This document shows, in pieces, positions 25,375-34,718 of a DNA stretch of 64,000 nt; position 1 is the first letter of the stretch; every line of letters begins with the position of its first letter. This stretch comes from Faecalibacillus intestinalis (lineage in GTDB: Bacteria; Bacillota_I; Bacilli_A; Erysipelotrichales; Coprobacillaceae), in the NCBI RefSeq assembly GCF_003024685.1, contig NZ_PYLQ01000003.1:1-64000 (forward strand). The letters run 5' to 3'. The position numbers were made by a program, and so were the translations under genes. Under the pieces are notes generated by a model. It searched no databases. It saw only the letters and a list, made by a program, of their open reading frames with translations, and had not been told where the DNA came from.

Positions 25375-25451
25375 GGTCTGGTAGTTCAGTTGGTTAGAAT
25401 GCCGCCCTGTCACGGCGGAGGTCGCGGGTTCGAGTCCCGTCCAGACCGCCA
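25375..25451 (+). tRNA. tRNA-Asp (GTC)
   Basis: A 77-nt tRNA, 7 nt after tRNA-Ser. Acceptor GGTCTGG pairs with CCAGACC, G discriminator, encoded CCA. Anticodon stem CCGCC/GGCGG with loop CTGTCAC gives anticodon GTC. Confidence 0.97.
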
Positions 25452-25461
25452 AATAAAAAAT

Positions 25462-25486
25462 AAACTGCTTATACAGCAGTTTTTAT
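25462..25486. terminator. Terminator after tRNA-Ser/Asp pair
   Basis: AAACTGCT, loop TATAC, AGCAGTTT plus T. It overlaps the 3' end of the convergent NUDIX gene. Confidence 0.85.
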
Positions 25487-26016
25487 TTTATATATTTATC
25501 ATTGTATGCTTTCATAACAGCGATGATCGTTTTAGAATCATGGATTTCATTATTCATGATTTTTTTATAGGCTTCATCTATTGGCATAGAGATAACGTCT
25601 ATAAATTCATCTTCATCTCCTTCAAGGGGATTTTCAACTTTAAATAGACCTTTTGCTTCATATAAATGAATAACTTCATCACAATATCCTGTTGTTGGAT
25701 ATATTTCATTAATAAGTTCCATGGATTTACAACTATAACCAGTTTCTTCTTCCAATTCTCTTTTACCGGCAGGTCCAGCTTCTTCCCCTAATTCTAATTT
25801 ACCAGCAGGAATTTCTAAAGTATCTTTATTGTAGGCATATCTAAATTGTTTGACGAGCAAGATACAATCATCGACGACTGCTAAAATACCTACACCGCCA
25901 TGATGTCTTACGATTTCTCTTGTTGCGAGCCTTTTGTTAGGACATTCTACCTGATCTTTATAGACTTTGATGATTTTTCCATCGTAGATCATTTCACTTT
26001 TAACTTTTTTTTCCAT
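25483..26016 (-). CDS. NUDIX hydrolase, ADP-ribose pyrophosphatase type
   Basis: A 177-aa enzyme with a complete Nudix box, GKLELGEEAGPAGKRELEEE at about residues 92-111 followed by TGY (REL-x-EE-x-TG). The N-terminal strand EIVRHHGGVGILAV and substrate region VKQFRYAYNKDTLEIPAG are those of ADP-ribose pyrophosphatases (Bacillus NudF-like). It hydrolyses ADP-ribose to AMP and ribose-5-phosphate. GAGGT lies before the ATG, with TATAAT on the minus strand about 35 nt upstream. Monocistronic. Confidence 0.92.
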   Translation of the reverse strand: MEKKVKSEMIYDGKIIKVYKDQVECPNKRLATREIVRHHGGVGILAVVDDCILLVKQFRYAYNKDTLEIPAGKLELGEEAGPAGKRELEEETGYSCKSMELINEIYPTTGYCDEVIHLYEAKGLFKVENPLEGDEDEFIDVISMPIDEAYKKIMNNEIHDSKTIIAVMKAYNDKYIK

Positions 26017-26076: not shown

Positions 26077-26171
26077 AAAAAAAGTATGCGGGGGTGCATA
26101 CTTTTTTTCGTCTATTATTTACGTAAGGATGATAATAGGGGGTATGTTAGAGTGAATGCATTTCACTTAAC
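26077..26171 (-). ncRNA. Candidate small RNA with promoter, two hairpins and terminator
   Basis: A free-standing minus-strand unit of about 95 nt with no credible reading frame. From 5' to 3': hairpin AGTGAA/TTCACT (26151-26167), hairpin CTATTAT/ATAATAG (26112-26138), then a terminator hairpin with arms AAGTATGC and GCATACTT (26082-26103) followed by a run of seven T (26077-26083 complement). The promoter at 26178-26205 directs it. It is not similar to any RNA family I know. The terminator could also work on the plus strand. Confidence 0.5.
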
Positions 26172-26177
26172 AAGTAT

Positions 26178-26205
26178 ATTATAACATGCTTATTTTAAAT
26201 GTAAA
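26178..26205 (-). promoter_or_regulatory. Promoter for the candidate small RNA
   Basis: On the minus strand: TTTACA, 16-bp spacer, TATAAT. The predicted start is near 26171. It is too far from, and terminated before, the NUDIX gene to serve it. Confidence 0.6.
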
Positions 26206-26269
26206 GGGTTTCATAAAAATAAAAGCTAACTTTAGCTTAGTCTATGTTATAATGACGTTGGTGATAGAA

Positions 26270-27250
26270 ATGAAAAAAATAGTAATTAAAGAAAATGATA
26301 CAAATCAAAGAATCGATAAATATTTAAAAAAATTATTATGTAATGCACCTAGTAATTTTATATATAAGATGTTTAGAAAAAAAGATATTAAAATTAATGG
26401 TAAAAAAGTAAATGAAAAATATATTCTACAAAAAGATGATATTTTAGAAATGTTCCTTTATGATGATAAATTTAATGAATTTACAAAAGAAAAAGATATT
26501 TATGATTTAAAAAGAGAATTTAAAGTATTATATGAAGATCAAAATATTTTAATTGTTGATAAACCAGTAGGTTTATTAGTTCATGGGGATGCTAAAGAAA
26601 ATGTAAATACGCTTTCTCATCAAGTTTTAAGTTATTTAAAAGAAAAAGGTGAATTGGATGTAGGCAGAGAGAGTACGTTTACTCCAGGACCAGTCCATCG
26701 TTTAGATCGTAATACAAGTGGGATCGTTATTTTTGGAAAGACTTTAGCTGCTTTACAGGATTTAAATGAAATGATGAAAAAACGACATCATATTGAAAAA
26801 TCATATATGACGATTTGTAAAGGAAAGCTTACTAAACAACAAGAACTCGTAGGATATGTTAAAAAGATAGATAATGAAGATCGTGTACGTTTTGTTAAAA
26901 AAGATGATAAAGATGCTCTAATGATGAAAACAATTGTAAAGCCAATAAGAACTACAAATGATTTTTCTTTAGTTGAAGTTAAAATTATTACAGGAAGAAT
27001 GCATCAAATAAGGATACATTTATCAAGTATTGATCATCCGGTTATAGGTGATCGTAAATATGGTGATTTTGCTTTAAATAAACAAATGAAACAACAATTT
27101 GGATTAAATAATCAACTTTTACATGCCTATAAAATTAATTTTGTTGATCCGTTTGGTTCACTTAGTTATCTAAAAGGAAAAATAATTATTTGTTCTAAGC
27201 CAACACAATTTAAAAAAATCGAAAAAAGTTTATTTGAAAGCGTTCTCTAA
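26270..27250 (+). CDS. RluA-family rRNA/tRNA pseudouridine synthase
   Basis: A 326-aa enzyme. ATG 26270 follows GGTGATAG, and TATAAT lies about 25 nt upstream; an earlier in-frame ATG falls in the promoter. An N-terminal S4-like RNA-binding domain (residues about 12-75, NFIYKMFRKKDIKINGKKVN) is followed by the synthase core with the catalytic Asp in HRLDRNTSGIVIFGKT, then the GRMHQIRIHLSSIDHPVIGD motif. This is the RluC/RluD-type architecture. The target uridines are not predictable. The last codons overlap a cre site belonging to the next gene. Confidence 0.92.
   Translation: MKKIVIKENDTNQRIDKYLKKLLCNAPSNFIYKMFRKKDIKINGKKVNEKYILQKDDILEMFLYDDKFNEFTKEKDIYDLKREFKVLYEDQNILIVDKPVGLLVHGDAKENVNTLSHQVLSYLKEKGELDVGRESTFTPGPVHRLDRNTSGIVIFGKTLAALQDLNEMMKKRHHIEKSYMTICKGKLTKQQELVGYVKKIDNEDRVRFVKKDDKDALMMKTIVKPIRTTNDFSLVEVKIITGRMHQIRIHLSSIDHPVIGDRKYGDFALNKQMKQQFGLNNQLLHAYKINFVDPFGSLSYLKGKIIICSKPTQFKKIEKSLFESVL
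27234..27248 (+). promoter_or_regulatory. Catabolite-responsive element (cre) at ROK kinase promoter
   Basis: TTGAAAGCGTTCTCT matches the CcpA consensus WTGNAANCGNWNNCW at every fixed position. It overlaps the predicted -35 region of a promoter whose -10 is TATAAT (27266-27271), a position expected to repress. It also overlaps the end of the upstream gene. Confidence 0.6.
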
Positions 27251-31873: not shown

Positions 31874-31879
31874 GCAAAT

Positions 31880-32090
31880 AAATCGTTGAAAAAGATCAGT
31901 ACTATATAGAATATTTTAGAGAGAACATGGTGGGTGAAAATGTTTATAGGATATATAGGAAAGCTACTTTGGAGAGTAATTAATGATTACCGTAGAACTG
32001 CGTTAAAGTTTAATTAAGGGCATGTATTTTTACATGAACTAGGATGGTACCGCGATAAAGTCGTTCCTAGATAAGGACGACTTTTTATAT
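31880..32090 (+). promoter_or_regulatory. T-box riboswitch (Ala) upstream of alaS
   Basis: The T-box core GGATGGTACCGCG (32042-32054) is followed by the terminator AAGTCGTTCCT/AGGACGACTTTTT (about 32058-32086). Stem I region has a GGTGGGTGAAAATG loop (about 31931) and a likely specifier GCT (Ala) in GGAAAGCTAC at about 31968-31977, followed by A as is usual. Uncharged tRNA-Ala pairs through the specifier and the antiterminator bulge to permit alaS expression. Confidence 0.93.
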
Positions 32091-32111: not shown

Positions 32112-34718
32112 ATGAAACAATTAACCGGAAATCAAGTTAGACAAATGTTCTTGGATTATTTCAAATCTAAAGGACATATGATCGAACCAGGTGCATCACT
32201 TATTCCTCATAACGATCCAACTTTATTATGGATCAATGCAGGGGTTGCTGCACTAAAAAAATATTTTGATGGTAGTGAAAAACCAGCATGTAATCGTATT
32301 GCAAATGCACAAAAATCAATTCGTACAAACGATATTGAAAATGTTGGTAAAACAGCAAGACATCATACTTTCTTTGAAATGTTAGGAAACTTCTCAATTG
32401 GAGATTATTTCAAAGAAGAAGCAATTCCATTTGCTTGGGAATTTTTAACAAGTCCAGAATGGATTGGTTTTGATAAAGAAAAATTATATGTTACTGTTTA
32501 CACAGATGATGAAGATGCTTATCGTATTTGGACAGAAGTATGTCATGTAGATCCAAGTCATATTTTAAAAACATATGAAAACTTCTGGGAAATTGGAGAA
32601 GGTCCAGGTGGTCCTGACTCAGAAATTTTCTATGACCGTGGAGAAAAATATGATCCTGAAGGTTTAGGAGAAAAATTATTCTTCGAAGAAATGGAAAATG
32701 ATCGTTATATTGAAGTATGGAACGTTGTTTTCTCTCAATATGATTGTAATCCAGCGATTGATCGTAAAGAATATAAAGAACTTCCACAAAAAAATATTGA
32801 TACTGGTATGGGACTTGAAAGATTAGTAAGTATTATTCAAGGTGGAGAAACAAACTTTGATACTGATTTATTCTTACCAATCATTCATGCTACTGAAAAA
32901 TTAGCCAATGTTTCTTATGAAGAAAATAAAATGGCTTATCGTGTTATTGCTGACCATATTCGTACTGTAACTTTTGCTTTAGCTGATGGAGCAATGTTTG
33001 ACAATGCTGGTAGAGGGTATGTTTTAAGACGTATTTTAAGACGTGCTGTTCGTTATGGTAAACAAATTGGTATTGAAAAAGCATTTATGTATGATTTAGT
33101 ACCATTAGTTTGTGATATGATGAAAGAGTTCTATGATTATTTACCAGAAAAACAAGATTTTATTTCAACAATGGTTAAAAAAGAAGAAGAAGCTTTTCAT
33201 AAAACATTATTAAATGGTGAAAAATTATTAAAATCATTAATTGATAAAAATGAAAATGGAGAAATCAGTGGAAAAGATGCTTTCAAACTTTATGATACAT
33301 ATGGTTTCCCATTTGAATTAACATTAGAAATTGCTGAAGAATCAAATTTAACAGTTAATGAAGAAGATTTTAAAGAAGAATTAAAAATTCAACAAGAAAG
33401 ATCTCGTGCATCACGTGATAACAATGAATCAATGGCAAGTCAAAAACCTGATTTAATGGCTTTTGTTGAACCTTCTACATTTGTTTATGATCCTACACCA
33501 ATCCAAGGAAAAGTTATTGGATTATTCAAAGATGGTGTTAAAACAGATGAAATCACTGATAAAGGAGAAGTTATCTTTGATACAACTCCATTCTACGGTG
33601 AAATGGGTGGACAATGTGGTGATACTGGATCATTAGATAATGAGACAACACATGCAAATGTTGTTAATACTTTAAATGCACCAAATAAACAACATATGCA
33701 TTTTGTTGAAGTAAAAGAAGGAGCTATTCATTTAGGTGATACTTTTACATTATCAATTGATCAACAAAAACGTCGTCAAATTACAGCAAACCATAGTGCA
33801 ACACATATTTTACAAAAAGCTTTACAAGAAACTTTAGGTGATCATATCAGCCAAGCAGGTTCTTATGTTGATGATAAAGTTTTAAGATTTGACTTTACTC
33901 ATTTTGAAAAAATTTCTGCTGAATTATTAAAAGAAATTGAAGAAAAAGTTAATCAAATTGTTTTTGAAGGACGTCCTGTTGTTATTAAAAATATGACAAA
34001 AGAAGAAGCTTTAGCATCAGGGGCAATGGCTTTATTTGATGAAAAATACGGAGATGTTGTTCGTGTTGTCAACATTGGAGATTACTCTATTGAATTATGT
34101 GGTGGTTGCCATGTTTCAAACAGTTCTGAAATTGGTTTATTTAAAATCGTGAGTGAAGAATCTGTAGGTAGTGGAATTAGACGTATTGTGGCACAAAGCG
34201 GTTTAGCTGCTTATAATGCAATGGTTCATGAAAAAGAAACAGTAGATACAATTGCTTCAACATTAAATCTTAAAAATAGAAAAGATGTTGTAAACAAAGT
34301 AGAAGCATTAAAAGAAGACTTAAAAGAAGCAAAAGCAGAAATTGAACAATTATCAGCTAAATTAAATGCAATTCAAGCTGCATCAAAAGCAAATGATATT
34401 GAAGAGATCAATGGAGTTAAAGTTCTTTATGTTGAAGAACAATTAGAAAATTCCAAAGCAAAACAATTAACATTTGATTTTAGAGATCAATTAGAAAGTG
34501 GAATCGTTGTTTTAGTTTCAAAATATGAAGAAAAATGTTCATACTTTGTTTCTGTGTCAAAAGATTTAGTTGGTCAATATAAAGCAGGAAATATCATTAA
34601 AGCAATCAATGAAGTTGTTGACGGTCGTGGTGGTGGAAAACCTGACTTTGCTCAAGGTGGATGTGCTATCAATGATAATATTTCTAAAATCAAAGGTGCT
34701 TTAAAAAATATTTTGTAA
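32112..34718 (+). CDS. alaS: Alanyl-tRNA synthetase
   Basis: An 868-aa class II synthetase of normal length. The aminoacylation core has motif 1-like HTFFEMLGNFSIGDY and motif 2/3 regions up to GRGYVLRRILRRAVRYG. The editing domain has HSATHILQKAL and CGGCHV (zinc ligands His and Cys). The C-terminal C-Ala domain ends GRGGGKPDFAQGG. It charges tRNA-Ala and clears Ser/Gly mischarging. A T-box leader controls it, and the ireB promoter overlaps its stop codon. Confidence 0.98.
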   Translation: MKQLTGNQVRQMFLDYFKSKGHMIEPGASLIPHNDPTLLWINAGVAALKKYFDGSEKPACNRIANAQKSIRTNDIENVGKTARHHTFFEMLGNFSIGDYFKEEAIPFAWEFLTSPEWIGFDKEKLYVTVYTDDEDAYRIWTEVCHVDPSHILKTYENFWEIGEGPGGPDSEIFYDRGEKYDPEGLGEKLFFEEMENDRYIEVWNVVFSQYDCNPAIDRKEYKELPQKNIDTGMGLERLVSIIQGGETNFDTDLFLPIIHATEKLANVSYEENKMAYRVIADHIRTVTFALADGAMFDNAGRGYVLRRILRRAVRYGKQIGIEKAFMYDLVPLVCDMMKEFYDYLPEKQDFISTMVKKEEEAFHKTLLNGEKLLKSLIDKNENGEISGKDAFKLYDTYGFPFELTLEIAEESNLTVNEEDFKEELKIQQERSRASRDNNESMASQKPDLMAFVEPSTFVYDPTPIQGKVIGLFKDGVKTDEITDKGEVIFDTTPFYGEMGGQCGDTGSLDNETTHANVVNTLNAPNKQHMHFVEVKEGAIHLGDTFTLSIDQQKRRQITANHSATHILQKALQETLGDHISQAGSYVDDKVLRFDFTHFEKISAELLKEIEEKVNQIVFEGRPVVIKNMTKEEALASGAMALFDEKYGDVVRVVNIGDYSIELCGGCHVSNSSEIGLFKIVSEESVGSGIRRIVAQSGLAAYNAMVHEKETVDTIASTLNLKNRKDVVNKVEALKEDLKEAKAEIEQLSAKLNAIQAASKANDIEEINGVKVLYVEEQLENSKAKQLTFDFRDQLESGIVVLVSKYEEKCSYFVSVSKDLVGQYKAGNIIKAINEVVDGRGGGKPDFAQGGCAINDNISKIKGALKNIL

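Follow-up and report, generated by a model that had tools for sequence, protein, structure and literature searches.

UCCC motifs have been called characteristic of the small RNAs (sRNAs) that block Shine-Dalgarno sequences (SDs) in low-GC bacteria, and for LhrC three C-rich motifs (in a loop, the linker and the terminator loop) have been shown to be redundant in SD blocking (PMC4132741). RsaE/RoxS (RF01820), known from Staphylococcus and Bacillus, blocks SDs with two UCCCC motifs and has metabolic and amino-acid targets (PMC9217828, PMC9266662). RsaI of Staphylococcus aureus pairs with SDs and represses translation, its own transcription being repressed by CcpA (PMC9266662), and its G-rich regions act as a sponge for RsaE (PMC9217828). 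GcvB of the enteric bacteria is a conserved sRNA that controls a group of genes for the uptake and metabolism of amino acids, close to their ribosome-binding sites (PMC3879156). For the Erysipelotrichia, which are common gut bacteria, our literature search revealed no sRNA that acts by base pairing and has known targets.

Here we describe a predicted sRNA of Faecalibacillus, a genus which we take to be placed in Coprobacillaceae. The unit lies in the window (the whole stretch of 64,000 nucleotides that was analysed, from a genome of 2.79 Mb) and has the following features and neighbours.

26213-26077, minus strand: sRNA unit from promoter through terminator (Faecalibacillus, family Coprobacillaceae)
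26200..26213, minus strand: conserved TGAAACCCTTTACA element, which overlaps the -35 box, resembles a cre site (CcpA/LacI-type) and has CC in place of the central CG
26178..26205, minus strand: sigma-70-type promoter TTTACA-16-(TG)nTATAAT, conserved across the family
26077..26171, minus strand: predicted small RNA of about 95 nt, based on fold z-score, covariance-model matches in 33 family genomes and covariation
26145..26172, minus strand: hairpin 1 (GUUAAGUGAA...UUCACU(C)UAAC), based on fold and covariation
26138..26143, minus strand: linker C run ACCCCC, proposed seed 1, continuing as ACCCCCUAUUAU; near-invariant in 30 homologs
26112..26138, minus strand: hairpin 2 (CUAUUAU/AUAAUAG), based on fold, with nearly invariant sequence; its loop is CAUCCUUACGUAA in the window and CACCCUUACGUG in most relatives
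26077..26108, minus strand: Rho-independent terminator with a 13-bp stem and a T7 tail, based on fold and two-sided changes
26090..26095, minus strand: terminator loop ACCCCC, proposed seed 2, kept across homologs
25483..26016, minus strand: NUDIX gene, downstream, a separate transcription unit with its own TATAAT at 26053-26048
26270..27250, plus strand: rluA-type pseudouridine synthase gene, divergent, with its own extended -10 at 26248-26253

A preliminary description had reported a minus-strand promoter, two internal hairpins and a terminator within about 95 nt that hold no reading frame, and all of these elements were recovered. The -35 box TTTACA (26205-26200) is separated by a 16-nt spacer from TATAAT (26183-26178), which carries the TG of an extended -10, and with 11/12 matches this promoter ranks first among the 17 promoter-like sites of the region. 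The 96-nt strand folds at -24.3 kcal/mol, where dinucleotide shuffles reach -6.3 +/- 2.3 (z = -7.9; 0/200 shuffles fold as well), and inside the sRNA segment no minus-strand open reading frame of at least 40 amino acids was found. The two C runs, at 26143-26138 (in the linker that joins hairpin 1 to hairpin 2) and at 26095-26090 (in the terminator loop), are almost wholly unpaired; they had been overlooked in the preliminary description, as had TGAAACCC just 5' of the -35 box, and no function had been proposed there. The nearest named relative of the NUDIX protein in our collection is that of Faecalibacillus faecis (85% identity), followed by Massilimicrobiota timonensis. Two further elements were observed in the window: a bidirectional terminator-like hairpin (25462-25482) between a tRNA (25375-25448) and the NUDIX 3' end, and an ordinary T-box leader (31877-32071, plus strand, 130.7 bits) directly 5' of the alanyl-tRNA synthetase gene (32112-34718).

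The preliminary description had proposed a covariance-model search in related genomes, and held that the unit would be refuted if relatives did not conserve the promoter and the stems. We built a first model from 5 homologs and a second (R2) from 30, and scanned 315 genomes of the order (43 Coprobacillaceae and 272 others). Strong copies, one per genome, were found in 33 Coprobacillaceae genomes at E<=1e-3, and both promoter and stems are conserved, so that the comparison of genomes supports the claim of an undescribed small RNA unit that has a promoter and a terminator of its own. Synteny adds diverged copies at the same locus in four more genomes of the family (G018, G019, G026 and G030), which brings the total to at least 37 of the 43. 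Two copies are incomplete: the one in G002 is interrupted by a contig end, and the one in G042 (L078) is degenerate, with promoter and linker kept and with other sequence in place of hairpin 2 and the terminator, apparently following a rearrangement. Three genomes (G015, G024 and G029) have rluA and NUDIX intact and adjacent with no RNA between them; in G003, which is 72% complete, neither the RNA nor rluA was found. A candidate relocated homolog away from rluA-NUDIX was seen in G029 (L075, contig C3, reverse strand near 17922-17839), with a hairpin, a single-stranded C-rich stretch and a CUCCCCCG terminator loop, and without the TGWAANCC promoter element. Outside the family, in the remaining 272 genomes, the covariance models found no homolog at E<=1e-3, and a promoter-plus-C5-loop pattern run over all 315 genomes gave the same one-family border as R2. 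Neither an exact-pattern scan of viral contigs (with a 19-mer form of the linker motif) nor a search of plasmid records by the locus DNA returned a match. As judged from these searches, the gene is conserved across Coprobacillaceae and restricted to that one family.

Covariation was analyzed on the 30-sequence alignment, which was fitted to the model and thereby favours it: 93% of the cells pair, and 14 pairs show two-sided changes against a shuffle mean of 5.1 (0/500 shuffles as high; slid controls at most 5). Most of these lie in the terminator stem, where 10/13 pairs carry two-sided compensatory changes. For hairpin 1 (88% of cells paired, 3/10 pairs with two-sided changes) the support by covariation is moderate, and for the helix of hairpin 2 covariation says little because the sequence is nearly invariant. 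The CCCCC of the terminator loop is found in 28/30 aligned homologs; at two loci (L065 and L067) the terminator stem sequence is wholly different with the loop C run unchanged, and the loop is also kept in the diverged syntenic homologs L099, L101 and L105. What the diverged copies retain is mainly the promoter element and the CCCCCGC loop. On this evidence the sRNA is almost certainly a real gene, and its expression is predicted.

Five genomes from four genera were screened for candidate targets, taken as genes with AGGGGGU 5' of ATG, and the gene names come from reading of the sequences. Recurring orthologs were a LysN-like aminotransferase, ilvC, glgD and relA, next to single amino-acid genes; many other genes carry the motif in single genomes. 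When the ribosome-binding regions of four genes were fetched across the family, GGGGG was present in the SDs of 31/33 ilvC and 21/24 ilvE orthologs, as well as in 14/24 regions of the aminotransferase and 9/28 of relA (against 2/197 background genes). An operon survey covered 20 ilvC loci from 19 genomes (leuA-ilvN-ilvC-leuC-leuD-leuB-ilvD-ilvB) and showed GGGGG at ilvC in 19/20, leuC in 12/19, ilvD in 4/19, ilvB in 4/18 and leuB in 1/19 cases, at leuA, ilvN and leuD of the same operon in 0/55 cases together, and at other genes around the ilvC loci in 7/174. Fisher p values are about 1e-33 (ilvC), 4e-24 (ilvE) and 5e-10 (leuC), which overstate the case as orthologs are not independent. The genes ilvC, ilvE and relA were among those that suggested the test, most of the scored genomes lay outside that selection, and leuC was not preselected.

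The linker C run is complementary to AAUAGGGGGU of ilvC SD regions, and in several genera the complementarity between linker CCCCCUAUU and ilvC AAUAGGGGG runs uninterrupted over 8-10 nt. The genome of the window holds ilvC twice, with AAGGGGGA at either copy, and its relA has AGGGGGU; the SD regions of the two copies (L321 on contig C9 and L322 on contig C6) are nearly identical (AAGGGGGATATTAAAAATG). The best SD for the ribosome is GGAGG; the middle G therefore costs ribosome pairing and completes the pairing with CCCCC. Measures of overall complementarity were less informative. In the genome of the window, ilvC and relA rank no higher than in the top 3-10 of 113 sites by duplex energy, and this energy alone does not set the targets apart; a search of that genome with the complement of the whole linker, ATAATAGGGGGTAT, gave hits at chance level (25 against 23 for the reversed control); and the longest-complement count has a median of 6 for leuC, the aminotransferase and relA, the same as for other genes. 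This count does not discriminate for these three, and the target argument rests on the conservation of GGGGG. The comparative evidence for the predicted targets is unusually strong, and the branched-chain amino-acid genes are probably the main conserved ones.

We infer the following course of events, which as a whole we consider likely. Transcription of the RNA of about 95 nt would start at a sigma-70 promoter of its own and stop at its own terminator; the two CCCCC runs of the RNA would base-pair in trans with the unusual GGGGG SDs of ilvC, ilvE and leuC (and in some genera with further sites on ilvB, ilvD, leuB, the LysN-like aminotransferase and relA); this pairing would block 30S binding and thereby lower branched-chain amino-acid synthesis. 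A CcpA/LacI-type operator overlapping the -35 box may repress the sRNA, which would tie the regulon to carbon supply.

The co-occurrence of RNA and motif was also inspected in single genomes. G024, a genome that lacks the RNA, shows ordinary SDs at each of the eight ilv-leu operon genes and no GGGGG at ilvE or relA. G014 has the RNA and is missing GGGGG at ilvC and ilvE. G015 (L370 / L360), without the RNA between rluA and NUDIX, keeps GGGGG at ilvC, ilvB, ilvE and relA, and therefore either holds an undetected RNA (perhaps a relocated or different C-rich one) or points to another cause of the motif. It might thus be argued that the sRNA is a real C-rich regulator whose main targets are other mRNAs or another RNA (for instance as a sponge), with the GGGGG of ilvC and ilvE reflecting translation tuning or a different C-rich sRNA; the many further genes with AGGGGGU in single genomes fit this idea, as does the fact that C-rich sRNAs often have multiple targets. 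Nonetheless, the motif is specific to ilvC, leuC and ilvE, as the leuA, ilvN and leuD counts show, it recurs over about 15 genera, and it is the exact complement of both conserved C runs, which makes this alternative unlikely.

No Rfam family matched the sRNA at its gathering score and none was credible down to E = 10, in agreement with the preliminary description, where no RNA family had been recognised; membership of a known Rfam family was rejected on this basis. The best reading is a new family of a known functional kind, namely the C-rich, SD-blocking, trans-acting sRNAs of low-GC Gram-positives, with repression as the predicted outcome. The features of that class are found here: an independent gene with its own promoter and terminator, conserved unpaired C-rich motifs (ACCCCC in the linker and the terminator loop), and conserved complementarity to the SDs of trans-encoded mRNAs (ilvC, ilvE and leuC, relative to background genes). 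By analogy, the sRNA is predicted to work like LhrC, RsaE or RsaI, outside their families. LhrC of Listeria (PMC4132741) has five copies, the motif CUCCC and a proven target in an adhesin mRNA, whereas here there are a single copy, ACCCCC and predicted branched-chain targets; its model was absent among the Rfam matches up to E = 10. With RsaE/RoxS the sRNA shares C-rich motifs aimed at SDs and amino-acid targets (predicted here), but structure, promoter control and context are all unlike, and the RF01820 score of 13.7 bits stays below the gathering score of 79. The likeness to RsaI lies in the pairing with SDs, predicted here, and in repression by CcpA, proposed here from the cre-like element; RsaI has other targets, its G-rich sponge regions are absent here (the RNA has no G run), and it gave no Rfam match for the sRNA. 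GcvB is a larger, Hfq-dependent RNA of a distant phylum and pairs through a G/U-rich region, not through C runs. Its sequence is unrelated to that of the sRNA, which resembles it as a conserved sRNA predicted to act on an amino-acid gene set in the ribosome-binding-site region.

The linker and hairpin 2 are conserved extremely well, beyond the needs of a short seed, which could indicate a protein-binding or decoy RNA, or C runs that titrate something else, with no base-pairing action. This we regard as very improbable given the reciprocal G5 motifs in a coherent pathway and an architecture that matches proven SD-blocking sRNAs (PMC4132741). The sRNA is predicted, with high confidence, to be a base-pairing C-rich regulator.

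Upstream of this predicted regulator, TGWAANCC abuts TTTACA in 30/30 of the closest homologous loci, and in this comparison its conservation is far in excess of promoter needs. The cre consensus of CcpA is TGWAANCGNTNWCA; TGWAANCCTTTACA departs from it at one position, the central G, and does so in every homolog. The genome of the window encodes, at 143941-144927 of contig C24, a ccpA ortholog, a LacI-type protein in the order murC-ytxG-ytxH-ccpA-tyrS. In the same genome, cre-like sites with the normal CG were observed 5' of a phosphoglucomutase-like and an rnfC-like gene (L082 and L084; names from reading of the sequences), and these canonical sites suggest a CcpA regulon in Coprobacillaceae. 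The CC variant TGWAANCCTTTACA is not enriched elsewhere in the genomes: most of its 58 sites are the sRNA gene itself and the rest are close to the control count. Control of the sRNA by a CcpA-type regulator is a tentative proposal, held with slightly less confidence than its converse.

Also the relation to the neighbouring genes was considered. The divergent rluA order is the same in nearly all homologous loci, and in most of them TGNTATAAT or TATAAT is found directly 3' of the sRNA terminator and 5' of NUDIX, which gives NUDIX its own transcription start. In most genomes NUDIX follows the RNA immediately and is read in the same direction, which would suit a cis-acting (riboswitch-like) leader or attenuator of NUDIX, with a terminator read through under some condition. 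This explanation is the least probable one and was rejected on synteny and promoters: NUDIX has its own -10, the rluA-NUDIX pair persists intact where the RNA is cleanly absent (G015, G024, G029), the RNA persists at L067 and L069, where the following ~1.3 kb hold no NUDIX, no antiterminator was recognised as an alternative pairing, and conservation is highest in the unpaired C runs. The sRNA is thus best taken as a gene of its own, and a role as a leader is unlikely.

The gene is exactly located, a covariance model exists for the whole family and the conserved predicted targets are few, so that the RNA is directly testable. The broader idea, to which we give an even chance, is an address code: across the family, one sRNA would hold selected branched-chain SDs at GGGGG instead of GGAGG, so that they can be switched off by a C5-loop RNA, linking carbon status to the synthesis of leucine, valine and isoleucine. 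If true, this would be a clear case of the ribosome-binding sites of a pathway being co-adapted to one sRNA, and the production of branched-chain amino acids by gut commensals would have a control point at the post-transcriptional level.
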